DNA from: Candidatus Woesearchaeota archaeon
GTDB lineage: Archaea; Nanobdellota; Nanobdellia; Woesearchaeales; 21-14-0-10-32-9
NCBI GenBank assembly: GCA_021735165.1
Contig: JAIPHP010000010.1
Span: 1-45,524, forward strand
Length of the DNA stretch: 45,524 nt
Reading direction: 5' to 3'
A program made the position numbers and the translations under genes. Below the pieces are notes generated by a model. It did no database searches, was not told the origin of the DNA, and saw nothing but the letters and a program-made list of their open reading frames with translations. This document shows, one piece after another, positions 13,901 to 38,321 of this stretch. Position 1 is the first letter of the stretch; the number at the start of each line of letters is the position of its first letter.

Positions 13901-16900
13901 ATTATTCCTCCGCTTAGTGAAGAGTTTACTTCGTATTCTTTTTCTAATAGCGCGGATATTGTTGCGTTTTGAATTTGGGAATTTTGCAGTATTATTGAAA
14001 TTTCATTTGTCACATCTTTTTTGAGTTGTATTAGCACTTTGTAAGGTTCAGTTCTAGTTATGTTTTCTGGCGTTACTTCTGTTGTTTCTATTGTTGTTTC
14101 ATTTAGAGTTACATTTGTAGTTATTAGTTCTTCAGATGCGGCTATTACGCTTAAATCTGAATTATCTAAGTCTACGAAGTTGTTTCCTGTGTTGTTCATT
14201 GTTGTTGTTACTAGTATTTTTTTTGTTGTCAAGTTTGTTGATGGAGTTATTTGTATTATTGTTTCGTTTAGTTCCGCATCCATATTTATGTCGTATATGT
14301 AAACTGTTAGGTTTGAGACGTCTTGTGTTATGTTTAGTAAGTTATCGGATTTTACGAAGTATTTTGTTCCATCACTCATTTTTTTCTCTAAGATTAGTTG
14401 TTTGAATCCTTTTGCTACATTCACAGAATATTGTCCTTGTGCATTTGTAAAGACTTCTGCTTTTCCTATTTTTATTTTTGCGTTGTAGACTGGAGAGTTA
14501 TTTTCTAGGTAATGTACTGTTCCGTTTACTGTTTGTGTTTCTACTTTTACTGTTATTGGCGTTATGAGTATTTTTTGAAATGCTCCTTCTGAGTCCATTG
14601 ACGCTGATATGTCCATTATAGGCATTCCTAAATAATATTCTCCTGGTTCTGACGGACTTAATATTTTGAAATCTGCGTAGCTTTTGTTATTCTCAGAATC
14701 ATTCTTTAGGAATACGCCTCCTTCTACGAACCATTCTTTTTCTTTTTCTGTGTTGTCTTTTAGGAAGAACATTCCCATCATCGCTTTTAGTCTGTTATCA
14801 TTTGTTGATTCTATATGTATGTCTATTAGTTCATTGACGCCTACTGTTTCGCTTGCAGTTATTGTTGAAACGTTATCATCCATTATTACAAATTGTAAAT
14901 TATCTGTAGAGTATGATGTTCCATCTGCACCTATTACTCTTAAGAGCACGTTTACAGGTCCTGTTGTTATATTTGTTATGTTTTCTGTTTCTTCATCTAT
15001 TCCTTGCGAGGGTATTGTAAATGAGTATTCTACGTTTCCTTGTGTTAAAGGTAGATTTAGAGATTCATTTTCATATACTATTATTTCGCTGAATCCTGTT
15101 AAGTCTTCAAGCAATGCTTCTATAGTGGTTAAGGTTCCGTTGATTGGTTCTCCGTAGTCATTTGTAACTGTTATGTTTAATGTTACTGTGTCTCCTATGG
15201 TGTAAGTTAAGTCTGAATTAACCTCTATGTTTCCTGAGCTTACGATGAAGTCTTGGAAATATCCTATGTCCTCTCTTTGATCATTGAATTCCATAAATTC
15301 CATTAGAGGAAATATGTCTACGAAGTATTCTCCGTCCGGCAGAGGACATAATTCTAATACTAGTTTTCCCAAACTATTTGTCTCTAGTTGCAAGTTGCTA
15401 TTAGGAGCCCATCCTCCTCCAGATTCCCAACTTTGTGCAGCTTCTAAAGAAGTGCAATCTACTCCGCTTAAAGGCAGTATTGATCCTTCATAGTCTAAAT
15501 CGTGGAATAGAGTCAAGTCTAGTTTTTGACTTATTGGATTTCCGTTTCTATCAGTTGTTGTTATATCTATTTTTAGATTTTCTCCTGGAGCAAATTTTGT
15601 TTTCATATCTACTTGTAGGGATTTTGTTCCAACATCTATAAAGTAAGCTATGTCTTGTCTTTTTCTTTCATTGTTTATTGTGCATGATGCTGTTCCTTCA
15701 ACAAGATATTGACCTGGCAAGGAAGGTGTTATGTATGAAAATTCGTAAGTTCCATTTCCTGTTACATTTCCTGTTACATTCATCGTTTTTACTAGTTGGT
15801 AATTTTTCTCATCGTACATTCCTGTGAATCTTATAGTGCAGTTTGTTAGCGGATCTCCTTGTAAATCTGCTGCTAGCACCCACACATTTTGTGTGCTTTT
15901 TGGTTGCAAATTAACTGTATTTTTTGATATTGATACGTGGAATTGTTCTACTTGTACGAATTGTGTTTTTTGGTATTCTTCACTATCATCATCTATGTAT
16001 TCAAATACTAAATCGTATTTTTTTCCTTGAGTTAAGTTTAGTATTGTAGGGTTTAATGTGAATACTGCCATGCCTGGCATTTCATATGGTCCCATCATTT
16101 CTCCTTCTCCCGGGCCTCCGCCCATCATGTCTTGTTCTCCTGAATACATGCAAGAGTCCATGTTCCATGAACAACCAGTATTGACACATTCTTGTTCTGA
16201 ATCTATTATTCCGCACACGACAGATAGATCTTGACAGAAGTATGTTTCTGAAGGATCATCATATAACCAACCGCAATAATCTTTTGTGTCGCACTCTTCT
16301 TCGGTTTCTAAATCATAGCAAATAACGTTGTCTTCATTACTTTGATCTCCGCCAGATATCATAAAGTCAGGGAAGTCGTTTGTTGTTTGGTTTATTCCAA
16401 GATGAGATACATCTATTAATTGGAATGTTTGTAGGTCTTTTATACCGACTAATGTTATTGTTTTGTTAGCTAATGGTCCAAACCAAGAACCTGAGTTACA
16501 ATCTGGGCAAAATGGATCTTCGTCTGATTCTCCAAATAATTCAGCAACCACTGTAAAATTTATTTCAGGTATTATGTTTTCACCATTAGGCATGAATGTT
16601 GTCATTTCTGTTCCGCTTCCTATTATGAAGTCTTCGTATATGAATTCTGAGAATCCTTCACTTCTTATTATTTCTATTTCCATGGTGTACCAACCAGGGA
16701 ATTGAGGTGTTGTAAAGTTTAATTCCAAAGCGCTTCCTGTGTTTATTAGAGGTTCATTATAGGATTTCCCGTTTGGACCCCATATGTTTCTTAAGGTTGC
16801 ATTTGTTGCGCCTGTTAATTGTAAAGTATAACTTTGTCCTCCAAAAATTACATCCGGTACAGATCCTGTTCCATCTATGATTTGAGCATTTGGTTTTGTG

Positions 16901-19900
16901 CCGTTGCTTAGTCTGAACCATGACCAACCATTTGAGACTCCGCTTGATGTTAAATTCATTTTTAGTTTGATTTCAAATTCATACACATTATCTAATAAAA
17001 GCGCTGAAGCATTTGGCTGCAATTCTATTAGGGCTTCTCCGTCAGTCACATCAAACGTCGAGGATGTTAATCCGAATGCACTTATTGGAATTTCTTGAGG
17101 TTCCCAAGTTCCTGGTTCGTGTTTTAGTATTTTTTCTATTTGTATATTTCCATCTTCTTCTATTGGTTGCCAGTCGTCTATATTTCTTGCTCTTGCATTA
17201 AGTTCTATTGTGTCAGTTATACCATATTCCCATTCTGTTGTGTATGCGTCTACTGCGTATGTTCTTACTTGGAAATCAAACCATATTGTTTGTCCTCCCA
17301 CAAGCAGTCGTCCTGTGTATCCTCCTGTTTCTAAGCTTGGTATTTGCGATAAGTCCATTTTGAATTCTACGGAGCCATTAGTTGCTGTTTGATTTTCAGG
17401 TGTGAAACTGTATGCGGATGTTGGAACTACTATTTGTGTTGGTTCATCATCCCAATTTTCAGGTCTTGTTTCTAACCTAACAAATTGTGCTTGAACTCCT
17501 GAGACTGGTTGACCTGCATCTCTTACTTTTACTATCAAAGTGTAATTTTCCGATGTTGAATAATCCCATTTTGCCTGGTCCCAAAATACTTCTAGATTAT
17601 CATTTCCTTTTACAAAGAAATCGACAGGTATAATTCTTGGAGTTCCTCCTATTGTTACGTTTAGTTCTGCGTGGTAGTTTCCTGTTTCAAAGTTGTCCGT
17701 TGTTATGTTTGCTGTGTTTCCTGAAGTTGTAAATGTGTATCTACTAGAGTCCATGTCACTCCAATAAATATCTTTTAGAACTGCCAAATCTATGTTTTCT
17801 GCAGTTACAGGTTGCCAGTTGTCTGTTATATTATATATATCGACTTGTATTTGTGCAGGGTTTCCTGCTTGGTATTCCCATTGTGTAGTCCATGCCCATG
17901 CTTCATAGTTGTCCGGGTATATGTCTATGAAGAAGTATTCTTTTGGTTTTTTTGTTGAGCCATCATCTAATTCCAGTATTATATCGTGAGGTCCTGTTGA
18001 TGTTAGATTCAAGTCGTTTAAGCTGTAACTAAATATTTTGTTTTGATTTGAGGTTTCTGCTGTTGTAAGGTCTGTCTTTATAGTTTTTGTTCCTGTAAAT
18101 AAGTTTTTGAAAGTTAAAGTTAATGATGCATTCGCTAATGTTGAAGATACGTTAAATGTGAAGTTTCTATTATCGGTTAATACGTATCTGTTGTTTCCAT
18201 GAGGCCAATTTACATTGAATCCTGATTGTATTATTCTTATGTTTTCTCCGTTAGGAAATGCATCCCATTTTGTGTCGCCGTAGCTGTAAACGAAGTTTCC
18301 GTTGTAGTCAAAAGTGTAATTTATGTTTGTTAATCCCGGGCTTATTGTTCTTTTTAGTAATTCATTTCCTGTAAATGGATCTAGTATCCAAAAATTTGTT
18401 GTTCTATTTAAGCTTGAAGTTATGTTGAATTGTACCATTTCATTTACGTTAGCTTGTTCTGGTGCGTCTATTTGTACATCTTTGTATCTTATGTCAAAGA
18501 AAGCGTTCCAATAATATACTTCTCCGCTTTCATTTATTCTAAAGTTTGCTTCATAAAATCCGTTTTCTAAATTTGTTAGTTGGAATTCTGTTGTTCCGCC
18601 AAAAGCCATTAGTTGATCAGGATCCACATCTGTATATTCCCAAGTCTGATAGTTCCAGTATCCTTCAAGCCATATGTCTGGAGTGTTCAGACCATTGATT
18701 GTGAAATTTATTGTTGCATTTCGGGTGCTTGAATTTGTTGTTGTTTCGACGAATATTCTTACATTATTATCTATTCTAAAATACATGTTGTTTGTAAATT
18801 CTGGATTTTCTAGTATTTCAAAATTTAACAAGTAGTCTCCTGAACTAAGCGCGTATGAAGTTAAATCTAATGAATAAATATCATTTCCTTCTCCGTTAAA
18901 AGATATGCCTACAGGGATTTCTTCTCCAGTCCACATATTTTCTATTGTCGTAATATTTATTGTGCCATTAGCATCATTTATGCCATTTACACCATTTGTA
19001 AAAACGGTGTAATTTATGTTTATAGTATCGCTAGAGCCAAATGTTGGGTCTAAAGGAGGATTTATTTGCATCCATGGTGCAATTACATCAAACCATAGTG
19101 TTTTGGTTACTGTTTTTCCACTTTGAGTTATGCTTACATCCGCAAAATAAGGTCCTGGAGTTAGTTCATTATTTATAGTTAAAAGGTTGTTTGAATAATA
19201 ATAATCTATTCCACTTACAGTGTTTCCTGTTATGTCTTTAATTGTGGTTGTTACAGTTGCGTCTCCTGTCACGCTTATATTTACATAGATTGTTTCTCCT
19301 GTTGAGTATGATTCTTTGTTATCTGTGAAGAAAACTGTTGTATCAAAGGGTTTAATTTCAAATTCTCCAGAGCCAAATCCTATAAAGTTGCCTGAATTTT
19401 CTTGTATGCTTAGGATTGGAGCGTACCTTCCTGGATTGTAGTTTGCTGCAGAGACTGTTATTGTTGCTACTCCGTTAGAAGCAGTTGTTGCTTGTTTGTT
19501 TGCTGCAACTGGAGCCCATGTATTGAAATTCATCAGTCCTGTTAAATTGACGGTAACATTTGATTTTGGAGTATCATTTTGATGTGTTACTTTAACATTT
19601 ATTTCAATATTGTCCGTTTGGCTAAATTGTTTGTCTGCATCATTTATTGTTACAATTATTTTATCTTCCACTATTCTAAATCCAAATCCGCCAAATGTTA
19701 AATCTGTGCCTTTTGATGCTTGTAGTTCTACAAAATATTCTCCTGGTTCTAAATTACTATTTTGTAAAAGCGTAATCGTAGTGACACCATATTGATCTGT
19801 AAGCGCAGCACCTGTATCTGTAATTCTTGAAGTGACATCTGAAAAATCTGATGCTCTAAAAACTCTTGCCACAGTAACATTTGTTTGATTTACTAATGAA

Positions 19901-22194
19901 CCTTGTTTTTCTATTGTTACGTCTGCAATTATATTATCGCCAGGAGCAAATTTTCCGTTGTTCCTTACATTAATGCTTCTGAAATTCAAATTTCTAATTT
20001 CAAAGAATCCATTACCTAATCCTGATTCTCCATCATCTGTTTCAACATCTATTCCAAAACCGTAGAAACCTGATTCGGAAGGAAGTTTCAAACTATTTGA
20101 GCTTGCAGTGCTTGACAATACCACTGAACCTTTTCCATTTATTACTTCAAAAGTTGCTTCTGGATAAAAATCTCTGTGGAGTCTGGCAGTTCCATTTTTG
20201 TTTGTAGATAATTGAATAGAAATGTTTATTGATTCACCTGAGGCGAATACTTCTTTTCTCTGACCATTAGAACCATAAGTTGAAACATCAACGTCAAAAG
20301 CACTTATTCCAAACCAGCCTTCTCCATTAAAGCTTTTACCTGCAGTGTCAACTAAAGTATATTCAACTCTGTAAATACCATTATCTAATGAGGGAGGCAG
20401 TATCTTGTATACTAATATGCCTACATCTTCATCGCTTAAACTATTATTTTTTATGGCATTAACATTGGCGTATTCTTTTTGATTTTCTTCATTTACAAGC
20501 TTATCTATTTTAACAGTAAAACCAGTCAGATCTGCAGGTTCATTATTAACTATGTCAAAAACATTGATATGTCCTAAAAAATTTTCTCCTGCTTGAAAAC
20601 CGAACTGAAATTCATTATTTAAATTTCTCATATCCATAAAAGATTGATAATTTTGAACAGAAAACCATCTGTCCCTTACAACTGTGTTTCCATCACTTGT
20701 TGTTACTGTTAATTTAGCTCTATATTTCTCAGTTGTTTGTGGAACATTAAAAGAAATTTCGCTAGAGCTTTCTGAAGAAATGCTAACATTATAAGTGTTT
20801 TGAAGAACGCCATCTCTATTATAAATCTCAAGCACAGCAAATGAAAGATTAGTATTTGATTCAAATTTGACTTTTGCAGATTCTCCTGGATTAAAAATAT
20901 CTCTGAATCCATCATAATAATCTGTTAATTTCATAAATAACTGAGTGTTAGAAACTTCAAAATATTCATTAGAACTTCCAGATTTTCCAGAACTTACTGC
21001 TTTAACCCTTAAAAAATAAGCGCCATCTTCTAAAGAAGCAGGAACCGTATATGCAACTACAGACGTTGTTGTAGGATCTGAATCTGAAGAAGCAACTACG
21101 CTACTAACATCATAAAATTTGCCGTTTTGTTCTAATTCGAAAAAATAAGTAACCTCATCATGATCTAAAAGAGTACCGTCTGTTAAATCTTTTACTATCA
21201 AATCAAACTCTGCAACTTCACCAGAAACATAAGGTTTTTTATCTACCAAATCAACATCAACATTTAAACCTAAAACTTTAAAGAATCCAAAAACTTTTTG
21301 TTCGTTATTGGATCTATCTCTCATTATGAATTCAACATTGTACTCTCCTGCTCTTAATTGTATAGGAGTGCCTGTTTGAGTAACATTAGTATTGCCGTTG
21401 TAAATACCGTTTGATTCAGCAAACGAAACTGTTTTAACAGTTCCTGCTGGATCAGTAACTTTTGCGGTAACGGTAGCATTAGTAATTCTTTGTCCATTAG
21501 AGTATCCTTCTACTTCAAAATAAGCAATGCCTCCTGGTTTAAAAGTGTCTTTAAGATTACCTACAGAGTCCGTTATTTTGAATTTAAGAGTGAATTTTGC
21601 AACTGACACCGTAAAAGATTTTTGGCCATTCACAATTATAGTATAAGTTCCGGCAACTGAAGGAAGCGTCAAAAGCTCAGATACACCGCTAATACCTGCA
21701 TAAGTATTTACTGTAGAACCATTTTCATAGAAAACTGTATAATTATAAGGATTTGATGTGAGAACTAAACCTTCATATTCGTTCACAGTAAAATTAAGAA
21801 CTGGATTACTAAAAGGAACAACTAATGAACTTGCAATGATTTGATAAGTGGGCTTGGCTTGAACAACACTAAATGTTAAGAACTGCTCTGCTTGGGAGGT
21901 ATTAGCAGTAACATTATGAGATCCTATAGATACATTATTTATATAATATTCAAAGTATCCATTAATATCACTTGCTCCAGAATATACTAGGGTTCCATCG
22001 TAATAGATACTTATAGGCGTACTATTTAGTGCGCCAAAGTTATCATCTAAAGTATAGCCAAAAACTTTAGCGGATTCTCCTGTTGAATAAACTTGACTGT
22101 TCAAATTGAGAACTAGAGTCTCAGCAGAAACTGTTGTTGTAAAAATAATCAAACAAATAATTAATAACCCATAATTTACAAGCTTGTTGTTCAT
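10996..22194 (-). CDS. Giant secreted multidomain Ig-like surface protein (3732 aa)
   Basis: A signal peptide (residues 1-24, LLIICLIIFTTTVSA-E) precedes about 1870 residues of tandem Ig/macroglobulin-like beta domains with recurring FxxGxxxxxxV and YxVxF patterns. Then come a Cys-rich, Gly/Met-rich segment (about 1895-2030), more beta domains, a carboxypeptidase-regulatory-like domain (about 2550-2600), a Cys-rich CGDGxC segment (about 2765-2840), two related Cys-containing modules (about 2860-3180), two DUF11-type repeats (about 3188-3445), another regulatory-like domain and a Cys-rich C-terminus with CTW motifs. Sequons are very frequent. No C-terminal membrane helix is seen. GAGGGGG sits 9 nt before the ATG and a TATA region lies near 22268-22283, giving a leadered mRNA. 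Role is inferred as adhesin or envelope filament. Confidence 0.88.
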   Translation of the reverse strand: MNNKLVNYGLLIICLIIFTTTVSAETLVLNLNSQVYSTGESAKVFGYTLDDNFGALNSTPISIYYDGTLVYSGASDINGYFEYYINNVSIGSHNVTANTSQAEQFLTFSVVQAKPTYQIIASSLVVPFSNPVLNFTVNEYEGLVLTSNPYNYTVFYENGSTVNTYAGISGVSELLTLPSVAGTYTIIVNGQKSFTVSVAKFTLKFKITDSVGNLKDTFKPGGIAYFEVEGYSNGQRITNATVTAKVTDPAGTVKTVSFAESNGIYNGNTNVTQTGTPIQLRAGEYNVEFIMRDRSNNEQKVFGFFKVLGLNVDVDLVDKKPYVSGEVAEFDLIVKDLTDGTLLDHDEVTYFFELEQNGKFYDVSSVVASSDSDPTTTSVVAYTVPASLEDGAYFLRVKAVSSGKSGSSNEYFEVSNTQLFMKLTDYYDGFRDIFNPGESAKVKFESNTNLSFAVLEIYNRDGVLQNTYNVSISSESSSEISFNVPQTTEKYRAKLTVTTSDGNTVVRDRWFSVQNYQSFMDMRNLNNEFQFGFQAGENFLGHINVFDIVNNEPADLTGFTVKIDKLVNEENQKEYANVNAIKNNSLSDEDVGILVYKILPPSLDNGIYRVEYTLVDTAGKSFNGEGWFGISAFDVDVSTYGSNGQRKEVFASGESINISIQLSTNKNGTARLHRDFYPEATFEVINGKGSVVLSSTASSNSLKLPSESGFYGFGIDVETDDGESGLGNGFFEIRNLNFRSINVRNNGKFAPGDNIIADVTIEKQGSLVNQTNVTVARVFRASDFSDVTSRITDTGAALTDQYGVTTITLLQNSNLEPGEYFVELQASKGTDLTFGGFGFRIVEDKIIVTINDADKQFSQTDNIEINVKVTHQNDTPKSNVTVNLTGLMNFNTWAPVAANKQATTASNGVATITVSAANYNPGRYAPILSIQENSGNFIGFGSGEFEIKPFDTTVFFTDNKESYSTGETIYVNISVTGDATVTTTIKDITGNTVSGIDYYYSNNLLTINNELTPGPYFADVSITQSGKTVTKTLWFDVIAPWMQINPPLDPTFGSSDTININYTVFTNGVNGINDANGTINITTIENMWTGEEIPVGISFNGEGNDIYSLDLTSYALSSGDYLLNFEILENPEFTNNMYFRIDNNVRIFVETTTNSSTRNATINFTINGLNTPDIWLEGYWNYQTWEYTDVDPDQLMAFGGTTEFQLTNLENGFYEANFRINESGEVYYWNAFFDIRYKDVQIDAPEQANVNEMVQFNITSSLNRTTNFWILDPFTGNELLKRTISPGLTNINYTFDYNGNFVYSYGDTKWDAFPNGENIRIIQSGFNVNWPHGNNRYVLTDNRNFTFNVSSTLANASLTLTFKNLFTGTKTIKTDLTTAETSNQNKIFSYSLNDLNLTSTGPHDIILELDDGSTKKPKEYFFIDIYPDNYEAWAWTTQWEYQAGNPAQIQVDIYNITDNWQPVTAENIDLAVLKDIYWSDMDSSRYTFTTSGNTANITTDNFETGNYHAELNVTIGGTPRIIPVDFFVKGNDNLEVFWDQAKWDYSTSENYTLIVKVRDAGQPVSGVQAQFVRLETRPENWDDEPTQIVVPTSAYSFTPENQTATNGSVEFKMDLSQIPSLETGGYTGRLLVGGQTIWFDFQVRTYAVDAYTTEWEYGITDTIELNARARNIDDWQPIEEDGNIQIEKILKHEPGTWEPQEIPISAFGLTSSTFDVTDGEALIELQPNASALLLDNVYEFEIKLKMNLTSSGVSNGWSWFRLSNGTKPNAQIIDGTGSVPDVIFGGQSYTLQLTGATNATLRNIWGPNGKSYNEPLINTGSALELNFTTPQFPGWYTMEIEIIRSEGFSEFIYEDFIIGSGTEMTTFMPNGENIIPEINFTVVAELFGESDEDPFCPDCNSGSWFGPLANKTITLVGIKDLQTFQLIDVSHLGINQTTNDFPDFMISGGDQSNEDNVICYDLETEEECDTKDYCGWLYDDPSETYFCQDLSVVCGIIDSEQECVNTGCSWNMDSCMYSGEQDMMGGGPGEGEMMGPYEMPGMAVFTLNPTILNLTQGKKYDLVFEYIDDDSEEYQKTQFVQVEQFHVSISKNTVNLQPKSTQNVWVLAADLQGDPLTNCTIRFTGMYDEKNYQLVKTMNVTGNVTGNGTYEFSYITPSLPGQYLVEGTASCTINNERKRQDIAYFIDVGTKSLQVDMKTKFAPGENLKIDITTTDRNGNPISQKLDLTLFHDLDYEGSILPLSGVDCTSLEAAQSWESGGGWAPNSNLQLETNSLGKLVLELCPLPDGEYFVDIFPLMEFMEFNDQREDIGYFQDFIVSSGNIEVNSDLTYTIGDTVTLNITVTNDYGEPINGTLTTIEALLEDLTGFSEIIVYENESLNLPLTQGNVEYSFTIPSQGIDEETENITNITTGPVNVLLRVIGADGTSYSTDNLQFVIMDDNVSTITASETVGVNELIDIHIESTNDNRLKAMMGMFFLKDNTEKEKEWFVEGGVFLKNDSENNKSYADFKILSPSEPGEYYLGMPIMDISASMDSEGAFQKILITPITVKVETQTVNGTVHYLENNSPVYNAKIKIGKAEVFTNAQGQYSVNVAKGFKQLILEKKMSDGTKYFVKSDNLLNITQDVSNLTVYIYDINMDAELNETIIQITPSTNLTTKKILVTTTMNNTGNNFVDLDNSDLSVIAASEELITTNVTLNETTIETTEVTPENITRTEPYKVLIQLKKDVTNEISIILQNSQIQNATISALLEKEYEVNSSLSGGIIQNYCGDGRCAIEEISTCSIDCSGVTDICGDGNVTGSENCDGQNVNGMTCSNFGYTSGTLGCIDDCRGWNFSQCVWETPGDLNDTNQTNETQELEELIINNANTVANDTHMLFEFQIENLSNSPYCNGTSITEEEFEEWVVGINSTNGGCDDEGCWLEEDYAAIISVNSSGYKENELEYWNGSSMTVNESKTFSTEISCQTNQIFINILKEDIGITCGVIQLRYETWYGDDSTEFYNIQDSLLDSIGITCEQEPLPQSERQELNITNAVINKNDTTTEFQMTLQNLSTISMCGGENLNMGSFERWQITFDNQAPGGCNIPEECNGTEDYKLNVEMNYNGTQNPEAAYWNGSEFVTNNTLTNAMDYYKDCNTNTITFRIPNSQVQIDTCTNITGVFATEFDDGMNSTIISTMISNALTDCGSEEQNTINMTVTKTALQQTVENGSVITFVINITNQDIINATNVELIDMYGGIPEGILDFGDEANPIYTYYNESLDKIIWYLNISAGQTTMIEVNFTATNLGNATNNVTLLDNQGDFVDFDEEIVEVIPQSQGGQEQQGTMNLSLSKTAIENRVENGSIVTFIINVTNIGTLNATNFQLVDMYGGIPEGILDFENETYPLFDDYNETLNRITWDLNLNTGQAFIAEVNFTAVDVGNATNNVTLLTNESNVYSFTTETVEIIPGNQSQEPQTAGLSGTVTGSIIENATIEIINTSNMQTIATIYTNNESMFNTSLPPGIYDLFIMLPEYYDYSDIEIEVMGLNITAQETLNVMVPHISGDIYINNEPVNGLVQIDNGTQANISVLFNNSDNYSMNVSFDVNASLIGDTTLYPAPITILGPQTAEFLDTQRTPTTIGINNLSFDFFMDIPQENVLSGTIANNIGQLGIFLNEISFPVNVTPIITGPLSCSGTLDCTAIQDSGNCTTVQNATYGACTWNTNSSTCITVESCQYINNSEGCMPADIDIGCTWS

Positions 22195-28219: not shown

Positions 28220-28822
28220 TTATAACTTTTTTATTATATTAATTATTTCAGGAAACTTAGAAATCTGAAAGTGCCCTGGAATATGTTTGTAAATGTGAAT
28301 ATTTGCTTTTTTTAATTTCTTTTTGTATTTCTCTGTTTGACTAGGCGGAACAACGGGATCATTTTCTGAAAAGAACAAATGAACACTTTTAGAACAATTA
28401 TCAATCATTGATAAATCTTTTTTTAGCTTAAATCCACCGACTAAATCTTCCCCAGAAATTGTGTTGTCATAAGGAGGACAAACTAATAATAATGCTTTAA
28501 TTTTCTTAGGAAATTTATTTTCTGATAAGTACTTTGCAAGAAAGATACCTCCTAACGAACTGCCAATAAGAATTACATTGTTTTTTAATAAGGGTAGATA
28601 TCTTTCAAAATGAATTTTCCATTCAGCATATTTAGCATTATCTTGTAAAGGCATTCTTGGCCTAATTATTTCATATTTTTTTCCGAGTAACTTATCCATA
28701 TAATCTTTTGTCCAACTATAATATTTATCAAGAGAAATGGTTCTTGTTCTCAAATGATTAATGTAGTCTTTTTTAGATTTAAAAGTCATGCCGCCGTGAA
28801 TCATAAGGATTTGAGTTCTCAT
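28220..28822 (-). CDS. Small alpha/beta hydrolase (serine hydrolase)
   Basis: From the preferred start (MRTQILMIHGG) the protein has 200 residues. It shows the oxyanion HGG near residue 9, nucleophile elbow GSSLG (Ser89), acid Asp155 in SENDPVVP and His184 in PGHFQ: a full Ser-Asp-His set. It has no signal peptide and should be cytosolic. The frame extends upstream to 28930, but a TATA element at 28841-28857 lies about 26 nt before the ATG at 28822, and the extra 36 residues do not look domain-like. The YAEW...VILIGSSLGGIFLAKYL part resembles the hydrolase inserted in the window's LeuRS (YEEW...ILIGHSAGCAFILRYL). The substrate is unknown. Confidence 0.82.
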   Translation of the reverse strand: MRTQILMIHGGMTFKSKKDYINHLRTRTISLDKYYSWTKDYMDKLLGKKYEIIRPRMPLQDNAKYAEWKIHFERYLPLLKNNVILIGSSLGGIFLAKYLSENKFPKKIKALLLVCPPYDNTISGEDLVGGFKLKKDLSMIDNCSKSVHLFFSENDPVVPPSQTEKYKKKLKKANIHIYKHIPGHFQISKFPEIINIIKKL

Positions 28823-28983
28823 AAAAGTTTTTATCTGTGCATTTATTAATAAATATTCTGATTTAATATTTGTGTTCTGAAGATTTTTAGCGCTTTGAAT
28901 ACAACTCCAAGGTAATACAGATATTTGCAACGCACCCTTTTAAACAACAAATTATTTAAAACCCAATACTTAAAAAAAAGATT

Positions 28984-29869: not shown

Positions 29870-32800
29870 ATGATGAAATTTCTTGGTATGATATTGTTGA
29901 TTTTTTTAGTGTTTAATGTTTCTGCCATGGCAGTTCCTTCAAATGTCGTTTACGATTCTGTTGAAGAAAAGATTCTTAATGAGGGAAACGCTAGAGTCAT
30001 AGTTAAAGTTTTAGAGCACAAACCTGAAAAAAAGAAGAGTTCCAAGTTTGGTGTTTCTTTAGCTTCTAATGAAGCATCTAATGTTCAAAATTTGCCTATA
30101 ATTAATGGTTTTTCAGGTGTTTTAACTATAGACGGTTTAAAGAAGCTTGAAGACTCCGGTTTAAAATATGAAATTTTTGAAGATACAATGATTCAGTTAA
30201 CGCCTATTAAGTCAGAATATGAGGTTGCTTTGACAACTAGCAGAGATAGTGTTGGTGCTTCAATTGTAGAATCTAATTATAATATTACAGGCAGAGGCGT
30301 AAAGGTTGCAGTCATTGATACTGGAATTGATTATACTCATGAAAGTTTAGGAGCTTGCAACCCTAGACAGATTAATTACACTGGTACCCCTATCTTTTTG
30401 AATGAAACTGATTCTGAACTTGTTAACTCTACTATTGCGTATGATGGGTTAGTTGTTGAGTCTGGTCATCCATATACGGATAATACTTCACATGAGTGGA
30501 ATATTACGATGCCTGGTTTTGAAAATATTAGTGTTCATTTTAGTTTGTTGGAATTAGAAGGAGGGTATGATTATATTTATGTATATGATGGTGGCGGAAG
30601 TTTAGTTGCTAATTATACTGGTAATATGACTGGTGTTTGGAGCCCTCATGTTTCAGGGAATACTACTAGAATAGTATTAGATTCAGATAGCGGGGTTTCA
30701 AAGCAAGGTTTTATTATTGATCGAGTTCTTAATGGTACGTCTAGCACTATTTATAATTGGTCTTCTTGTTCTAAAATTAAGGGCGGATATGATTTTTTTG
30801 AGGGAAATGAAGATCCTATGGATGATCATTATCATGGAACTCATGTTGCAGGTATAGTTGGAGGTAATGGAACCATTACAGGTATTGCTAAGGATGCTGA
30901 ACTTTACGCTTTGAAAGCTTGCGATTATGGGGGTGCATGTTTTACTTCTGCAATTCTTAGTTCTTTGCAGTGGGCTCTTGATAATAATATGGATATTGCT
31001 AGTCTTTCAATCTCTTCAGGTATTAATGCGGATCTTTTAAATAGCAATACAGGTTTATCTGCGGTTAGTCAAGCAGTAAATACTGCGGCGAGCAATGGTT
31101 TAATTGTTGTGGTTGCTGCAGGTAATACTGGTCCTGGTGTAAATACTATTGGAAGTCCTGCAGATGCTGTTTCTGCAATTAGTGTTGGCGCTTCAAGTGA
31201 TTATCAAAATACTGATTTAAGTGATGATTACGTTGCTAGTTTTAGTGCTCGTGGACCTAGTGCGTTTGGAAGATTAGATCCTGACTTAGTTGCGCCTGGT
31301 TATTTGATTTATAGCACTAGCATCGGAAATACTTATGTTACTATTTCAGGTACGAGTATGGCAACTCCTCATGTTTCTGGCGCTGCTGCGCTTTTGTTGG
31401 AAGAGTTTGGTTCCTTAACTCCGAGTCAAATTAGAGCAATGCTTATGGCTTCTTCACATAATATTTCTGGAAGTGTTTTAGAGAAGGGTGCAGGTCAGCT
31501 TAATGTTCTTAATGCTTTGAATCTTAACATGTATGCATTAGCTAATTATACGGATCCTACAAGTAACGTAGTTTCTTCTGATAGATGGGAATTTGTTGTT
31601 GATAGATATGGTTCTAATTCTGTTAATCTAACTATTTTTAATCGTAATAATTATGAAATTAATTTTACTTTTGCTATTGATTCTTTTAACGATTTAGTTT
31701 CGGGTTTTGATTTTAATGAATCTGATTTTTCAATTCCTAGTTTAGTAATTGTTCCTGCTAATAGCAACATTACTTTTCAGATTAATTACAGCGTTAGTGA
31801 TTATTTTAATGCCGTGCCTGGTACTTATGCAGGTATTTTGAGAATGTATGGGCTTGGCAATAATGGGAGTTCTTCTGTTTCTAAGAATATTTCTTTCCCT
31901 ATTGTCACAACAATGCCCATTAGTTATGATTATACTGGTAATTTTACTTCTTCTTATTCTGAATATGAGAGGCCTTCTGATAATATTAGTGTTGATGGAG
32001 ACAACATTTATTTTGCGCTTACATCTAATGTTGATAGTTTATTTAATGTTTCTGTTAGTTATTCTAGTTATGAACCTGTTTTCAATATATCTATTTTTAA
32101 TAGTACAGGGAGATTTTTAAGCAATGATGATTCTTTTAATAAGACCAGTATTAATTTAAGTTCTTCTGTTACAATTTCTGATAACGTGCACTGGATTCAA
32201 GCTTATAATTATAATACGAGTACGCCTTTTGTTTTTACTTTATCTGTTTCTGACAACATTAGTAATTCCGCGCCTAATATTTTTAATGTTACAACTCTTG
32301 CAGGTTCAGATAATTTAACTTTTGTCAGGCCTAATAATGTTACGTTGGTTTTGAATTTTAATGATAGTGATGACGATTTTGTTACGGTAAGCATTAATGA
32401 TTCTTATTATTCTAATATTTCTGGTAATGGACGAAATATGTCTGTTTTTTATAGGGGTACTGATGAGTCTTGTTTTGGCAATCATTCTGTTTTATTTACT
32501 TTAGTTGATGAAGAAGCTAATTCCGTTAATTATACTGCTAACATAACTGTTTTAAGTCCTGTTGATTATTCGCCTATTTTTTTAAGTAGTTCTCCATGGC
32601 ATGGTAATGTTAGTGTTTCTGAGTTTCAAAATCAGAGTTTTAGTGTTAGCGTTTGTGATGTTAATAGTTATTCTTTGAATTATTATTGGTTTTTGAACGG
32701 TAGTAATATTCTTAATGGTTCTGAGTACAATTTTTCAGGTAATTCTTCTTATGCCGATTATAATTTGACGTTGATAGTTTCCAATAATTTCAGCAATTCT

Positions 32801-34753
32801 TCTGTTGGATGGAATTTGAGTGTTGTTCCTAATGTTGCTCCAATTATTCATAATGTTTTTAATTTTAGTAATGGTACAGATTTTGTTTTTAATAGGTCAG
32901 AGATTGCTTATATAAGATTGAATTTTTCTGATGCTAATAATGATTCTGTTTCTTCAACTATTAATGAATCGGATTATTCTTTAGTTAGTTCTGATAATGT
33001 TAGTGCTTTGTTTTCTTTGAATACTAGTGCTACTTGTTTGATGAATCATTCTGTTGTTGTTAATGTTTCTGATGAGTTTGGCAATTATAGTTTAGCTGAA
33101 AAAAATATTAGCATTTTAACAGATATTGATTATCCTCCAATCATATATTCTTATGACGGCATCAACAATTTTGTTGTTAATAATGGTTCTTCTTATGTTC
33201 TTAATATAACTGTTTGTGATGGCAATAATAGAAATATGACTATTTATTGGTTTGTTAATGAAAGTATTATTTCTAGTTCTGAAAATGATACTTCTTTTAA
33301 TATTGTTGATTCTGTTCTTCCTATGAGAAATAATAATGTTACAGTTATTGTGAGTAATGGGGTTAGTAATGTTAGTCATGAGTGGAACATTATAAGAAAT
33401 AATCCTGTTTCGTATTATACTGCTGAGGATATTCCTAATTTATCTTGGGATCAAGGCAGTAGTGAGAGTGATGCTTTTGAGATTGATGATTATTTTAGGG
33501 ATGCGGATGGTGATAGCATTTCTTATTATTTGATAAATGGTTCTAGTATTTCTATGTCTATTAGTAATAATTTGGTTTCTTTTACTTCTTCATCTAGTTA
33601 TTCTGGTTCAAGAGAGGTTTATATTAGAGCTACTGATGGCTATAGTAATGCCACAAGCAACATTTTTACTTTGACTGTTAATTCTGTTTCTTCTCCAGGC
33701 TCTACTACTAGTTCGAGCACAAACAGTCCTGGTAGTAATTTGGGTTCTGATGATACTAGCGGTGTTGTTGAATATTCTAAGCTTTTTACGACTGCTTCTG
33801 GAACAATTGAGTTGTCTGAGGATTATTCGAGTGTTGCTATTAATAATGTTAAGGTTTCTTTGAATGGAGAAAGATCTAATGTTAGAATTGGTGTGAAAAA
33901 GCTTGATGGTTCAGAGGAACCTTCTTATGTTTCTGATTTTGGTTTTGTTAAGTATCAGGTTTTAGAGATTGAGCATGAGAATTTGGATGATTCAGATATT
34001 TCTGATGTCAAAATAGGGTTTAAAGTTCCTAAAACTTATGTTTTAACTCAGAGCATTAGTAGGAACGATATTGTTCTTTATAGATATTCTGATGGAAAGT
34101 GGAAGCCTTTGAGTACTTCTTATACTGGTGTTTCTGGAGATAATTATTTGTTTGAAGCAGATAGTCCTGGTCTTAGTACTTTTATTGTTGGACATGAAGA
34201 AAAATCTGTTGTTTCTCAGTCTAATAATGAAATAAGTGGAGATAATCAGGATTCATCTAAAAATTCAAATTCAGGTTTTGTTAGTGGTTCTGATAATAAT
34301 AGTGTTAATGGAACAGGGTTAGGTTCTAAAGGTGTACTTTCTGGCGTTGTTGTTGTGAGCTATGTTGTATTCGGGATTTTTATTGTTTTAGGCATTTTTA
34401 TTGTTGTTAAGCATCATTTGCAATTGGTTCATGATGAGAAGAATTCTAAATTAAAAAGTAAAGATAAGAAATTCAAAGTCCAACCTAGAGTCAAAAGAGA
34501 TGATTTTAAGCATACTAAGATTAGTATTCCTGGTTATTCTGATACGGAAAAGAAAAGTAAGAAAAATAATGTTAATTATGTTTCGTCTGAATCAAGTTAT
34601 GTTTTTGATATGAGGAAAAAGATTGCTGATAAGCTTAAAGAAAAAAGCGAGTTTTTTAAAACTAGGTTAAAGGAAGGTTCTAAGAAAACTAAAGATTTAA
34701 TTAAGAGCAAGAAAAAAGATAAATATGAACATGGAAGAATAAAGCTTGATTAA
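29870..34753 (+). CDS. Cell-surface subtilisin-like protease (S8) with CUB-like insertion and PGF-pre-PGF end
   Basis: The 1627-aa protein has a signal peptide (about 1-21) and an inhibitor-like propeptide (about 35-105). Its S8 catalytic domain has Asp150 (VAVIDTGID), His322 (HGTHVAG), Asn419 (AAGNTGPG) and Ser496 (GTSMATPH). Between Asp and His lies an insertion (about 190-287) with CUB features: WNITMPGFENISVHF, YDYIYVYDGG, SGVSKQGF. Downstream are beta domains including a duplicated module of about 190 residues (about 800-1180), a cadherin-like domain, a PGF-pre-PGF domain (about 1337-1444), a membrane helix (about 1488-1517) and a basic cytosolic tail. GAGGG precedes the ATG; a TATA-like element lies near 29813-29825. 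Likely role: maturation or turnover of surface proteins. Confidence 0.93.
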   Translation: MMKFLGMILLIFLVFNVSAMAVPSNVVYDSVEEKILNEGNARVIVKVLEHKPEKKKSSKFGVSLASNEASNVQNLPIINGFSGVLTIDGLKKLEDSGLKYEIFEDTMIQLTPIKSEYEVALTTSRDSVGASIVESNYNITGRGVKVAVIDTGIDYTHESLGACNPRQINYTGTPIFLNETDSELVNSTIAYDGLVVESGHPYTDNTSHEWNITMPGFENISVHFSLLELEGGYDYIYVYDGGGSLVANYTGNMTGVWSPHVSGNTTRIVLDSDSGVSKQGFIIDRVLNGTSSTIYNWSSCSKIKGGYDFFEGNEDPMDDHYHGTHVAGIVGGNGTITGIAKDAELYALKACDYGGACFTSAILSSLQWALDNNMDIASLSISSGINADLLNSNTGLSAVSQAVNTAASNGLIVVVAAGNTGPGVNTIGSPADAVSAISVGASSDYQNTDLSDDYVASFSARGPSAFGRLDPDLVAPGYLIYSTSIGNTYVTISGTSMATPHVSGAAALLLEEFGSLTPSQIRAMLMASSHNISGSVLEKGAGQLNVLNALNLNMYALANYTDPTSNVVSSDRWEFVVDRYGSNSVNLTIFNRNNYEINFTFAIDSFNDLVSGFDFNESDFSIPSLVIVPANSNITFQINYSVSDYFNAVPGTYAGILRMYGLGNNGSSSVSKNISFPIVTTMPISYDYTGNFTSSYSEYERPSDNISVDGDNIYFALTSNVDSLFNVSVSYSSYEPVFNISIFNSTGRFLSNDDSFNKTSINLSSSVTISDNVHWIQAYNYNTSTPFVFTLSVSDNISNSAPNIFNVTTLAGSDNLTFVRPNNVTLVLNFNDSDDDFVTVSINDSYYSNISGNGRNMSVFYRGTDESCFGNHSVLFTLVDEEANSVNYTANITVLSPVDYSPIFLSSSPWHGNVSVSEFQNQSFSVSVCDVNSYSLNYYWFLNGSNILNGSEYNFSGNSSYADYNLTLIVSNNFSNSSVGWNLSVVPNVAPIIHNVFNFSNGTDFVFNRSEIAYIRLNFSDANNDSVSSTINESDYSLVSSDNVSALFSLNTSATCLMNHSVVVNVSDEFGNYSLAEKNISILTDIDYPPIIYSYDGINNFVVNNGSSYVLNITVCDGNNRNMTIYWFVNESIISSSENDTSFNIVDSVLPMRNNNVTVIVSNGVSNVSHEWNIIRNNPVSYYTAEDIPNLSWDQGSSESDAFEIDDYFRDADGDSISYYLINGSSISMSISNNLVSFTSSSSYSGSREVYIRATDGYSNATSNIFTLTVNSVSSPGSTTSSSTNSPGSNLGSDDTSGVVEYSKLFTTASGTIELSEDYSSVAINNVKVSLNGERSNVRIGVKKLDGSEEPSYVSDFGFVKYQVLEIEHENLDDSDISDVKIGFKVPKTYVLTQSISRNDIVLYRYSDGKWKPLSTSYTGVSGDNYLFEADSPGLSTFIVGHEEKSVVSQSNNEISGDNQDSSKNSNSGFVSGSDNNSVNGTGLGSKGVLSGVVVVSYVVFGIFIVLGIFIVVKHHLQLVHDEKNSKLKSKDKKFKVQPRVKRDDFKHTKISIPGYSDTEKKSKKNNVNYVSSESSYVFDMRKKIADKLKEKSEFFKTRLKEGSKKTKDLIKSKKKDKYEHGRIKLD

Positions 34754-34757
34754 ACTT

Positions 34758-37700
34758 TTATTTTATTATTATTGCAGGTTTTCCTGGTATTGCGTTTCCT
34801 GCTTTGTTTTCTTTTGACTTATCTCCTAATTCTAGTTCTATAGTGCAGTTGAATTCTTTTTCTAGGTTTTCTTTGTTGTCTTTGAGGTTTTTTAGTTCTT
34901 CTTCTAAGTTTATTGTTTGTTTGGGAATTTTTGATTCATCTTTTAGAAATGCAGGTATTAATTTCATTATGTCTTTCCCGTTTTTCTTTAGTTCTGTTTT
35001 CATGACTTTTGATATTATGTCTTTTGGGTTTCTTGTTTCTTTTATTGTCTCTTTGAACAATTTTATGAATTCATATTTCCATTTCTGACTTAATATTATT
35101 TTTATTTTTTCTGGGTTTTCTTTTCCTAGTAGTTTTAGCAATTGTCTTAAGTCTTCTTTTAGGTTGTCTATTGATTCGTCTAAGTAATCAAGTTTTTCAT
35201 CTATTAAATCTTCGTTGTGTTTTGGCCATTTTTCTAGGGATATTAATTTTTTATTTCCTAGTTTTTCCCATAGTTCTTCTGCTGTGTGAGGACAAAAGGG
35301 CGCTAAGAGTTTAATGTAGCATTCTAAATCTGTTTTGCTTATTCCTTTTTCTAAGTGTTCAAATAATTCTCTTATTTGTATTATGGCAATATTATATTTC
35401 ATGTTTTCAATATTTTCTGTTACGTTCTTAATTGTTGCATGTAATTTATTTTTTACTTTTGAATTTGTTTCTATTTGTGTTTTTGTTTCTTTGTAGTTTT
35501 CTATGAAATTTATTATTTTGTTTAGGAATCTTTGACTTCCTTCTGCTCCTTTATCTGACCAGTTTATGTCTTTGTCTGGACTGGCTTGAGAAACTAAGAA
35601 CATTCTCGCGCTATCTAATCCGAATTTTTCAGAGACGGTTTCTGGCAATATAATGTTGCCTTTTGATTTTGACATTTTTTCTCCGTCCGGGCCTTGTAAC
35701 ATGCCTTGGTTGAATAATTTTTTTGCTGGCTCATCAAAGTTTAACAGTCCTATATCTCTTAGGAATTTAGTGTAGAATCTTATGTAAATTAAGTGCATAC
35801 ATGCGTGTTCTTTTCCGCCTATGTATGTATCAACAGGACACCAGTAATCAGCTTTTTGAGAAGTGAATGGCGTTTCATTATTTTTAGGGTCTGTGTATCT
35901 TAGGTAGTACCATGAGCTGTTTACAAAGGTGTCCATGGTATCTGTTTCTAATCGATATTCTTTTCCTTCAATATTTATTTTGTGACTCTTTGAGGTTTCT
36001 AAGGGGTTTCCTTTTCCTTCTTCAAATGTTACGTCTTCAGGAAGAGTTATGGGGAGCATTTCTTCAGGAACGGGCTTAGGTTTGTTGTTTTCATCGTAAT
36101 ATATTGGTATTGGTGTTCCCCAGTATCTTTGTCTTGAAATAAGCCAATCTCGTAATCTAAAATTAACTGTTTGTTTTCCTTTTTCTATAACTTCAAGTTT
36201 TTTTGTTATAATTTCTTTTGCTTTTTCTGATTCTAAACCATCGAATTCATAGCTATTTACAAGTATTCCATGTTCTGTGTAAGCTTGTTTTTGATCAAGA
36301 ACTTCTTTTAATAGTTCTGGGAATTCTTTTGTTTTCATATCTCCTTCAGTGAGATGTCCTTTGCCTTTAAGTTCAGTAATTTTGCCGCCTAAGATTTTAT
36401 TTATTTCTTTTACACTTTTTATTATGTCTTTATTATCGTCATCAGAGTAAATTATACTTAAAGAATCTAAACAGTTTTTAGTTTTTGAACTTAAGTTGAA
36501 ACTGTATAGGTCTGTTATTCTTTTTGTTCTTTCATCTTCTACGTAAGCAGGAGCTGCTAATACAACTTTATGCACTTTCTTTTTTGTTTCTTGTAAATAT
36601 CTTAAAATGAATGCACAACCAGCACTATGTCCAATAAGTATCGAATTTTCATTTATGTTATTCTTTTCAAAGATTTTTTTCCATTCTTCATAGTTTGGTT
36701 TCCAGTCGCTAGGATATAATTCGTTAGACACATTCATTCCAACTTTTTCAAGTTCTTTTTTTAGCCATGGTTTCCAGTGTCTTTCATTTTCTCTGCAGGG
36801 GTTCATTGCTTTTTCTTCGTTTGCATTTGATCCGTGTACTATTATGCAATTCTGGTTCTTTGGTTTTATTACCTGTTTTATTGGTATGTTGTACTTCTTT
36901 GCGAATTCATAATCTCTTTGATCGTGTGCTGGTACTGCCATTACCATTCCGCTTCCATAATCTGCAAGGACGAAGTTTCCTGCGTATACAGGGATTTGTT
37001 CGCCTGTAAGAGGGTGTATTGCGTAGCTTCCTGTAAATACGCCTTCTTTTTCCATTTGGTCTATGTCTTCTGCTTTTATGCTGTGAATTGTTTTTTTGAA
37101 TTTTTCAACTTCTTCTTTTTGTTCTTTTGTTATTAATTGGTTTAGTTTTGGATGGTTTGCGGCAACTACTAAGAAGGTTACTCCCATTAGTGTGTCTGGT
37201 CTTGTTGTGAATACTGGCCATTTTGAGTTTAATTCTTTTTTTAAGAATTCTTTGACTTTTGGTATGTCTTGATTGTAGAGGTGTGTTTTTATTCCTATTG
37301 ATTCTGCAGATTTTTTTGCTTCTTCTCCATGTTCAAAGTAAATTACGTTTTCTGATTTTAGGGCGTATTTTTTTAATAGGGTTTCGTAATATTTTGGGTT
37401 TTCTTTTGAAGGGTTGAATTCTTGCGTGAATATTTCATAGTTAATTTTTGAAAATAATTTTGTGTGGAGTTCTTTTTTTGCATTTGTTAGCACTATTTTT
37501 TTGTTAGGTAATGAATCTAGAAATTTTTTTAATTCTATGTTTACGTTGCCTTTTTCATCAACTAATGTGTGGACTGCGTCTACAAAGATTGTTTTTTGGT
37601 TTGGTATTTCAAATATTATTTCTGAGCCATAAGATTTGTTTATCCAGTTTGTTTGGAGTTTTTTTATTAGTTCAGGCCAGTTTTCTAATTTTTTTATTCC

Positions 37701-38321
37701 TTCGTATAGTTCGTCTGCATACTCTGTTATTTTAAGATACCACTGCGCAAGTTTTTTTACTTCTACTTCTGTATCTTCGTGTCTCCAGCACTTTCCGTTG
37801 TGTACTTGTTCATTAGCAAGGACTGTGTTGCATTTTGGGCACCAGTTCACGCTTGATTCTTTCTTGTATACTAGGCCTTTTTTGTACATTTGTAAGAATA
37901 TCCATTGGTCCCATTTGAAGTATTCTGGTGTGTGGGTTTGAATCATTCTGTCCCAGTCATAGCTTAGTCCTAGGGATTTCATTTGTTTGATGTAGTTTTT
38001 TATTGCTTCTTCTGTGAATTCTTTTGGGTGTCTTCTGTTTTTTATGGCAGCGTTTTCTGCTGGTAGGCCAAATGAATCAAAGCCCATTGGGTAGAGAACG
38101 TTAAAACCTTGCATTCTTTTGAATCGAGCGTAGATGTCTCCTATTGTGTAATTTAATGCATGACCCATGTGAAGTCCTGAAGCTGATGGATAGGGGAACA
38201 TTTCAAGAACGTAGTATTTTGGTTTTTTGCTCTTTTCATCTGCTTTGAATGCCTGTTTTTCTTCCCATTTAGTTTGCCATTTTTCTGTTATTTGTTTGTG
38301 ATTTATCTTTTCCTGAGCCAT
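34758..38321 (-). CDS. leuS: Leucyl-tRNA synthetase, bacterial-type, with two extra domains in the editing region
   Basis: This charges tRNA-Leu. HMGH (51-54), zinc module WCPKC...CWRH (160-181), MSKSKGN (883-889) and bacterial-type core segments (RLRDWLISRQRYWG, SSWYYLRYTDP) are present. At 1187 aa it exceeds the usual 800-970. The excess comes mainly from two insertions in CP1: residues about 242-366 (HAD-like: FVDAVHTLVDEKG, VLTN) and about 486-678 (YdeN/RBBP9-like hydrolase: VHGSNAN, GHSAG Ser566, Asp627-629, His656). The editing motifs TTRPDT (372-377) and AHDQRDYEF (465-473) flank the second insert and look intact. The end (GNAIPGKPAIIIK) resembles archaeal LeuRS C-termini. A TATA-like element lies 25 nt upstream. 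Its stop is 4 nt from the converging protease stop. Confidence 0.95.
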   Translation of the reverse strand: MAQEKINHKQITEKWQTKWEEKQAFKADEKSKKPKYYVLEMFPYPSASGLHMGHALNYTIGDIYARFKRMQGFNVLYPMGFDSFGLPAENAAIKNRRHPKEFTEEAIKNYIKQMKSLGLSYDWDRMIQTHTPEYFKWDQWIFLQMYKKGLVYKKESSVNWCPKCNTVLANEQVHNGKCWRHEDTEVEVKKLAQWYLKITEYADELYEGIKKLENWPELIKKLQTNWINKSYGSEIIFEIPNQKTIFVDAVHTLVDEKGNVNIELKKFLDSLPNKKIVLTNAKKELHTKLFSKINYEIFTQEFNPSKENPKYYETLLKKYALKSENVIYFEHGEEAKKSAESIGIKTHLYNQDIPKVKEFLKKELNSKWPVFTTRPDTLMGVTFLVVAANHPKLNQLITKEQKEEVEKFKKTIHSIKAEDIDQMEKEGVFTGSYAIHPLTGEQIPVYAGNFVLADYGSGMVMAVPAHDQRDYEFAKKYNIPIKQVIKPKNQNCIIVHGSNANEEKAMNPCRENERHWKPWLKKELEKVGMNVSNELYPSDWKPNYEEWKKIFEKNNINENSILIGHSAGCAFILRYLQETKKKVHKVVLAAPAYVEDERTKRITDLYSFNLSSKTKNCLDSLSIIYSDDDNKDIIKSVKEINKILGGKITELKGKGHLTEGDMKTKEFPELLKEVLDQKQAYTEHGILVNSYEFDGLESEKAKEIITKKLEVIEKGKQTVNFRLRDWLISRQRYWGTPIPIYYDENNKPKPVPEEMLPITLPEDVTFEEGKGNPLETSKSHKINIEGKEYRLETDTMDTFVNSSWYYLRYTDPKNNETPFTSQKADYWCPVDTYIGGKEHACMHLIYIRFYTKFLRDIGLLNFDEPAKKLFNQGMLQGPDGEKMSKSKGNIILPETVSEKFGLDSARMFLVSQASPDKDINWSDKGAEGSQRFLNKIINFIENYKETKTQIETNSKVKNKLHATIKNVTENIENMKYNIAIIQIRELFEHLEKGISKTDLECYIKLLAPFCPHTAEELWEKLGNKKLISLEKWPKHNEDLIDEKLDYLDESIDNLKEDLRQLLKLLGKENPEKIKIILSQKWKYEFIKLFKETIKETRNPKDIISKVMKTELKKNGKDIMKLIPAFLKDESKIPKQTINLEEELKNLKDNKENLEKEFNCTIELELGDKSKENKAGNAIPGKPAIIIK
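36288..36866 (-). other. LeuRS insertion 2: YdeN/RBBP9-like serine hydrolase domain
   Basis: LeuRS residues about 486-678. The domain begins with beta strand NCIIVHGSNAN, continues with HWKPWLKKELEKVG and YEEWKKIF, has the nucleophile elbow GHSAG (Ser566), an acidic cluster (Asp627-629) after strand LSIIYS, and GKGHL (His656). These are the landmarks of the Ser_hydrolase (YdeN/RBBP9) family. The site lies between the IKQVI strand and the TEHGILVNS segment of the CP1 editing domain. Confidence 0.85.
37224..37598 (-). other. LeuRS insertion 1: degenerate HAD-like domain
   Basis: LeuRS residues about 242-366, between the first CP1 strand (YGSEIIFEI) and WPVFTTRPDT. IFVDAVHTLVDEKG resembles HAD motif I (Asp kept, second Asp replaced by Val), KIVLTNAKKE resembles motif II, and VIYFEHGEEAKKSAESIGIK resembles motif IV with its acidic pair changed to Glu-His. 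The fold is likely HAD-like, but activity is doubtful. Confidence 0.6.

Follow-up and report, generated by a model that had tools for sequence, protein, structure and literature searches.

Why would a leucyl-tRNA synthetase (LeuRS) carry other enzymes inside the very domain with which it proofreads? Editing by class I synthetases is usually regarded as the task of one fixed domain, CP1. In the stretch of DNA analyzed here, a 45,524-nucleotide contig of a Candidatus Woesearchaeota genome (JAIPHP010000010.1, GenBank assembly GCA_021735165.1; referred to below as the window), that domain is interrupted twice. The gene, its class I and editing motifs, and the first of the two interruptions are located as follows:

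34758..38321, minus strand: leuS, a bacterial-type leucyl-tRNA synthetase of 1187 aa with two nested domains (open reading frame and profile matches)
38160..38171, minus strand: class I motif HMGH (computed position)
35664..35678, minus strand: class I motif KMSKS (computed position)
37191..37208, minus strand: CP1 editing motif TTRPDT, residues 372-377 (computed position)
36903..36929, minus strand: CP1 editing motif AHDQRDYEF, residues 465-473 (computed position)
37224..37601, minus strand: site A insert, residues 241-366, a small HAD-like domain near the start of CP1 (profile match)

The synthetase was typed as bacterial (LeuRS-B) by profile search, with 876.7 bits to TIGR00396 against an equivalog cut-off of 548.4. 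Its CP1 contains two nested domains, the HAD-like one near the start (site A) and a serine hydrolase after AHDQRDYEF (site B). Both sites fall inside the Pfam editing family PF13603, which matches the window LeuRS in two stretches, the better covering model positions 18-155; the match runs from model position 1 or 2 to 181-185 in most listed LeuRS and starts at 21 in two site A carriers (G061 and G083). A preliminary description of this DNA had placed a hydrolase at 36288-36866, residues 486-678, beside intact TTRPDT and AHDQRDYEF motifs. These coordinates and motif positions were confirmed, and the region scored above the cut-off for PF06821. The hydrolase was thus correctly recognized as an extra domain, but the second insert, the HAD domain at residues 241-366, had been missed.

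GC content was 0.283 in the HAD insert, 0.307 in the hydrolase, 0.312 in the C-terminal rest of the gene, 0.365 in the N-terminal part, and 0.377 in the rest of CP1. Composition was dropped as proof that the inserts are native, since they resemble the C-terminal rest but fall below the N-terminal part. A full-length structure predicted from 38 LeuRS sequences reached a pLDDT of 82; values were mostly good in the body and CP1 but low in the hydrolase part, for which a separate domain model was therefore used. The solved structures that Foldseek listed as matches to the full-length model (50 rows) are of bacterial-type LeuRS. Elsewhere in the window, leuS is convergent with a gene for a 1627-aa subtilase (Peptidase_S8) with a CUB domain (29870-34753, plus strand), and a 3732-aa open frame occupies 10996-22194 (minus strand).

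The site B insert and its active-site landmarks are as follows:

36288..36866, minus strand: site B insert, residues 486-678, YdeN/RBBP9-type alpha/beta serine hydrolase, PF06821 (profile, fold prediction, and alignment)
36819..36839, minus strand: VHGSNAN, residues 495-501, first strand and H-G loop of the hydrolase (computed position)
36624..36626, minus strand: codon of S566, the nucleophile in GHSAG (564-568), aligned with RBBP9 S75
36435..36437, minus strand: codon of D629, the triad acid, aligned with RBBP9 D138
36354..36356, minus strand: codon of H656, the triad base in GKGHL (653-657), aligned with the His of RBBP9 GHF

By profile and predicted fold, this insert is a complete YdeN/RBBP9-family serine hydrolase inside CP1. 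PF06821 (Ser_hydrolase) was matched with an E value of 4.1e-16 within the whole LeuRS and, as an isolated region, with 1.7e-17 and 64.3 bits (cut-off 22). The VHGSNAN loop is presumably the oxyanion region, by analogy with the family, and the acidic motif YSDDDN (residues 625-630) supplies D627-D629. Judging from the alignment, the S566/D629/H656 triad is in register with that of RBBP9. The isolated domain, predicted from 69 relatives (pLDDT 96.1, pTM 0.92), bears out the hydrolase fold claimed in the preliminary description: its best solved match is YdeN (1uxo; Z 26.2, rmsd 1.6 over 179 residues), followed by RBBP9 entries at Z 23.5-23.6 (including 7oex, RBBP9 with phenylalanine, at 23.5). 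Next among Foldseek's top 1000 chains came a YdeN-like chain (Z 18.4) and other hydrolases at 17.6 or below. The nearest solved proteins by sequence are likewise YdeN and RBBP9. The loop bearing the alpha-amine-binding Glu108 of RBBP9 was paired differently with the insert between alignments, at low confidence.

The site A insert matched the HAD-IA model TIGR01509 with 33.1 bits within the whole LeuRS and 36.7 bits alone (cut-off 29.4), over model positions 56-152 of 154; Pfam HAD_2 gave 16.5, below its cut-off of 23.8. Motif I reads DAV, without the usual second Asp (DxD), and in six of six aligned copies it consists of DA or DG and then V, I, or M. Because of this missing Asp we term the domain HAD-like, and on the same motif its phosphatase activity, or any HAD catalysis, appears doubtful. 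It occupies site A in four LeuRS (G000, which is the window genome, G004, G340, and G348). A HAD profile run on 215 genomes gave 13 strong matches (at least 121 bits; next 58.7), of which 4 lie in LeuRS, 3 in AlaRS, and 1 behind an alpha/beta hydrolase, with 5 as separate genes. Five copies were found in AlaRS altogether, namely, the three profile matches (L296, L298, and L299) and two named loci (L084 and L086), so that LeuRS and AlaRS are the only two host proteins in which this subfamily was embedded in the surveyed genomes and loci. The copy behind an alpha/beta hydrolase, in G136 (L297, 1501-2658, minus strand), is a fusion of that enzyme to the LeuRS/AlaRS-type HAD domain.

An insert of this kind could be an assembly chimera or a one-off accident, which we consider exceedingly improbable. 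The window LeuRS is a single open frame, and the LeuRS of a genome of the same genus (G004), 79% identical over residues 1-1186, has both inserts and therefore argues against chimeric assembly. A hydrolase-type insert also occurs in a record titled complete genome (CP061211.1). On these grounds, a chimera was rejected. The preliminary description had pointed to related genomes as the place to look for the same insertion, and a related hydrolase was found in the LeuRS of 19 genomes besides that of the window.

The LeuRS survey drew on 287 genomes from the order and a phylum sample of 371, the matches listed being the stronger scores. Genes were fetched mainly for long open frames, with short ones for comparison and 80 named loci in addition; since long frames were preferentially chosen, proportions in the fetched set do not mirror those in nature. 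A serine hydrolase lies within LeuRS in at least 20 genomes of this archaeal class, at three sites:

Site A, 14 genomes: G061, G044, G193, G228, G083, G062, G350, G466, G359, G432, G373, G454, G445, G423
Site B, 3 genomes: G000 (window genome), G004, G266
Site C, 3 genomes: G189, G205, G121

Anchor-to-anchor segment lengths in a set of 106 LeuRS rows were bimodal at these sites: 14-26 residues in 88 rows and 138-212 in 18 at site A, 23-39 in 78 and 98-210 in 28 at site B, and 14-17 in 103 and 213-215 in 3 at site C. An insert is present in 44 of the 106 rows, and sites A and B are both filled in 5. As a lower bound, hydrolase carriers number at least 16 among 209 genomes with the LeuRS editing family, themselves among 343. 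Among LeuRS from loci titled as bacterial, 51 of the 80 named ones (one a truncated frame), none was enlarged by an insert of at least 25 aa at any of the three sites. Within the family of the window genome, bacterial-type LeuRS occurs without inserts (G002, G005, and G006) or with a Nudix domain at site B (G001 and G003). In three further members (L041, L042, and L043 of G007, G008, and G010), LeuRS aligns poorly with that of the window and resembles the archaeal type on visual inspection, so that a change of synthetase type seems to have occurred within the family.

The catalytic triad (Ser, Asp or Glu, and His) is kept in the alignment of all 20 inserted hydrolases (16 SDH and 4 SEH). Also preserved in these 20 LeuRS are the catalytic motifs HxGH and MSK, together with TTR, DT, HD, and RD of the editing site. 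The idea that carriers have lost classical editing was rejected on this basis, and with the classical site intact in every carrier there is no sign of its replacement.

The hydrolase is one of several cassette types in these synthetases; the preliminary description was right about its presence and incomplete in picturing a single insert. Nudix domains were found at site B of LeuRS in 13 genomes, using a profile made here, and were confirmed by Pfam in both copies scanned (G001 and G350):

Site B, Nudix-bearing LeuRS loci: L036, L038, L047, L048, L052, L054, L059, L187, L190, L193, L204, L205, L207

A nucleotidyltransferase-like domain occupies site B in G209 (above cut-off) and G301 (just below), and three further site B inserts that were scanned gave no Pfam match. 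Five loci (L189, L198, L197, L202, and L208) have, by eye, a similar domain of ~120 aa (more in L208) at site B, for which the one scanned copy, L189, gave no Pfam match; in L189 and L198 it is paired with a hydrolase at site A. As background, Nudix domains may also occur in the LeuRS of Patescibacteria.

One explanation for such cassettes is that the hydrolase serves as a structural or tRNA-contact spacer with no catalytic use. The placement of the inserts in CP1 loops would suit a spacer, as would the HAD insert that lacks a catalytic Asp and the degenerate Nudix box of G350, the only LeuRS found with both a hydrolase (site A) and a Nudix domain (site B). However, a full Nudix box is present in the other 12 of 13 Nudix inserts, and the hydrolase triad is unbroken across at least two sequence clades. 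We therefore regard a purely structural role as improbable, and less likely than either of the catalytic readings weighed next, quality control and an active passenger.

The retention of triads in 20 of 20 hydrolases, together with the retained classical editing residues, favors an active, tethered enzyme. The family, the predicted fold, and the recurrence at three sites count in its favor as well. In our leading reading, which is tentative and built partly on analogy, an active RBBP9-type serine hydrolase placed in CP1 with its own active site would serve as a second quality-control hydrolase for LeuRS products or by-products. It would act on small aminoacyl groups, hydrophobic and with a free alpha-amine, cleaving them from ester or amide linkages by the usual two-step route through a Ser566 acyl-enzyme with the assistance of His656 and Asp629, and tethering would position it beside the aminoacylated end of the tRNA. 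The sequences show that the domain is there, is complete, belongs to this family, recurs, keeps its triad, and in some relatives is closely linked to leuS; its catalysis, its substrate, and any effect on tRNA are inferred. In aminoacyl-tRNA, the aminoacyl group has a free alpha-amine and is ester linked. According to the available text of one study, human RBBP9 acts as a serine aminopeptidase dependent on a free alpha-amine; in cells, its trap mutant captured Leu/Ile, Met, Phe, Tyr, and Trp, and amide, ester, and thioester bonds are all considered possible by the authors (PMC8866121). By analogy, the quality-control reading may gain from this activity on hydrophobic amino acids. In the same text, RBBP9 assays favor Phe and Tyr, not Leu, which counts against it (PMC8866121).

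Evolutionary rates point both ways for quality control. In aligned codons of the window gene and its same-genus relative, dN was 0.138 for the body, 0.159 for HAD, 0.196 for the LeuRS C-terminal domain, and 0.220 for the hydrolase. The hydrolase is thus the fastest-changing part among those compared, which counts against quality control, whereas its dN close to that of the C-terminal domain and its dN/dS of 0.17 count for it. Because dS (1.26 to 1.79) is near saturation, dN/dS values of about 0.08 to 0.17 are rough.

RBBP9 activity could instead point to an aminopeptidase that frees Leu or other hydrophobic amino acids from peptides to supply LeuRS. RBBP9 is an aminopeptidase for hydrophobic residues in the available text (PMC8866121), and the Mycoplasma penetrans MetRS, as partially available, offers a precedent in an aminotransferase domain that feeds methionine (PMC7694997). 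The small genome (1.1 Mb) would also fit. However, RBBP9 favors aromatic residues, and the HAD and Nudix domains at equivalent sites are unsuited to amino acid supply. Such a supply role, like a structural one, has little likelihood and ranks below both quality control and a passenger.

Nearly as likely as a tethered quality-control hydrolase is an active passenger, whose substrate would be unrelated to LeuRS and whose position would reflect CP1 hairpins that tolerate insertion and housecleaning enzymes that fuse freely. The preliminary description had put forward both a cis-editing activity and an unrelated passenger. The different folds at sites A and B (HAD, Nudix, nucleotidyltransferase-like, and unnamed) suggest that these sites may just tolerate insertion. 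The same families are also fused to each other elsewhere, as in the G136 fusion and in hydrolase-Nudix proteins. The latter are separate proteins with the hydrolase first, found in the window genome (L004, 1021-2052, minus strand) and in G003 (L164, 1018-2046, minus strand). On the other side, those inserts that can be named are all enzyme folds (three scanned inserts had no family match), and the HAD type was found embedded just in the two synthetases among the genomes and loci surveyed.

The history of the inserts bears on the same choice. In a tree of 69 hydrolase sequences, inserted copies fall mainly in two clades. One of them, type I (98/97), includes the window domain among inserts from both site A and site B, along with a single copy elsewhere and the two genes adjacent to leuS. 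In the second (100/99) there are eight inserts, every one from site A. Outside both are the site A insert of G466, on a long branch, and the three site C inserts, whose grouping with the second clade is weak (83/75). The window also encodes another PF06821 hydrolase as a protein of its own (28220-28930, minus strand; 236-aa frame; row L184), which belongs to a long-branched trio of this tree. The inserted state requires 5 changes on the hydrolase tree. On the 106-row LeuRS tree, a quick tree with many weak branches on which recombination within leuS could inflate the count, 17 changes were obtained for the 20 hydrolase carriers, 12 for the 13 Nudix carriers, and 3 for the 4 HAD carriers. These trees indicate repeated gain and loss, or swapping of CP1 segments, and so scattered a distribution of the hydrolase is in keeping with a passenger.

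Linkage to leuS is tight in some relatives. In G339 and G355, a separate type I hydrolase gene lies on the same strand, its ATG overlapping the TGA stop of leuS (ATGA), an arrangement that speaks against a passenger and for quality control. In G348, whose leuS carries the HAD insert, that gene is immediately preceded by a broken type I copy (L279, 1486-1827, minus strand). A type I profile run on 371 genomes gave 22 members of at least 188 bits, 8 in LeuRS, 2 overlapping leuS, and 12 elsewhere, whereas the tally from the first tree (8 inserted, 2 adjacent, and 1 elsewhere) came from a sample biased to high PF06821 scores. With 12 of 22 close relatives away from leuS, an exclusive link is weakened, as a passenger would have it, and the notion of a type I hydrolase exclusive to LeuRS was dropped. 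Among the 12, a stop interrupts the copy of G418, and that of G471 has a frame of just 132 aa; inspection by eye of the neighbors of these 12 copies showed no common theme. When PF06821 does occur in frames of >900 aa, the host was LeuRS in 8 of 8 among the matches listed for the 371 genomes, which counts against a freely fusing passenger and for quality control, and in 11 of 11 from a set of 15 genomes that had been selected for their long LeuRS or their kinship. Taken as they stand in the sequences, the type I copies elsewhere, the other folds at the sites, the patchy gain and loss, and the intact classical editing site would all count against quality control.

In related archaea, the positions filled in the window LeuRS are repeatedly occupied by the same small enzymes or by others, which suggests that these enzymes may work with tRNA charging. 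It is conceivable, if rather unlikely as a whole, that LeuRS and AlaRS of this class are docking scaffolds for exchangeable loop enzymes (RBBP9-type, Nudix, and HAD) that remove side products of tRNA charging where they arise, among them dinucleoside polyphosphates, nucleotides, and aminoacyl esters that are wrong or unwanted; on that view the hydrolase would add a second cis-proofreading site, with a fold not known from editing. Here CP1 itself is the host, and other enzymes have repeatedly been taken up in defined loops of it. Should the hydrolase act on aminoacyl-tRNA, a serine hydrolase would be doing the proofreading; if it has no such role, it still shows how far an essential synthetase tolerates new enzymes. 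Natural variants with a hydrolase, a Nudix domain, a HAD domain, or no insert in close relatives allow a direct comparison of fidelity.

Each ingredient has been described before, whether LeuRS, the hydrolase family, or the fusion of catalytic domains to synthetases; among the titles and abstract openings listed in searches of open-licence literature, we found no description of a LeuRS-nested serine hydrolase or of exchangeable CP1 cassettes. In the available part of a 2026 domain insertion survey, the LeuRS editing domain is classed as insertion-only and does not once serve as host among 213 events (PMC13114784); the CP1 domains that host enzymes here are a counterexample to that record. The MetRS of Mycoplasma penetrans, as far as its published account is available, is similar in being a synthetase fused to a catalytic metabolic domain and differs in that its aminotransferase is N-terminal rather than nested in an editing domain and performs other chemistry (PMC7694997). 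Solved LeuRS-B structures (PDB 1h3n and 4aq7) resemble the window LeuRS across the whole synthetase, including CP1, the motifs, and the C-terminal region, and the window protein adds two domains nested in CP1. Compared with free-standing trans-editing factors, the predicted activity would rest on the same concept, an additional hydrolase directed at aminoacyl-tRNA; however, YbaK/ProXp, DTD, and AlaX have unrelated folds and are not known to be serine alpha/beta hydrolases. The closest solved relatives, YdeN (1uxo) and RBBP9 (2qs9, 7oex, and 9fcr), share with the insert its fold, length, GHSxG motif, and an acid and His in register, at an identity of about 22-25%. In type I members, the stretch that follows the H-G motif is longer than in these structures, and H30, W31, W34, and W62 (insert numbering) are invariant. 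The solved members are separate proteins, whereas the window domain interrupts a LeuRS.
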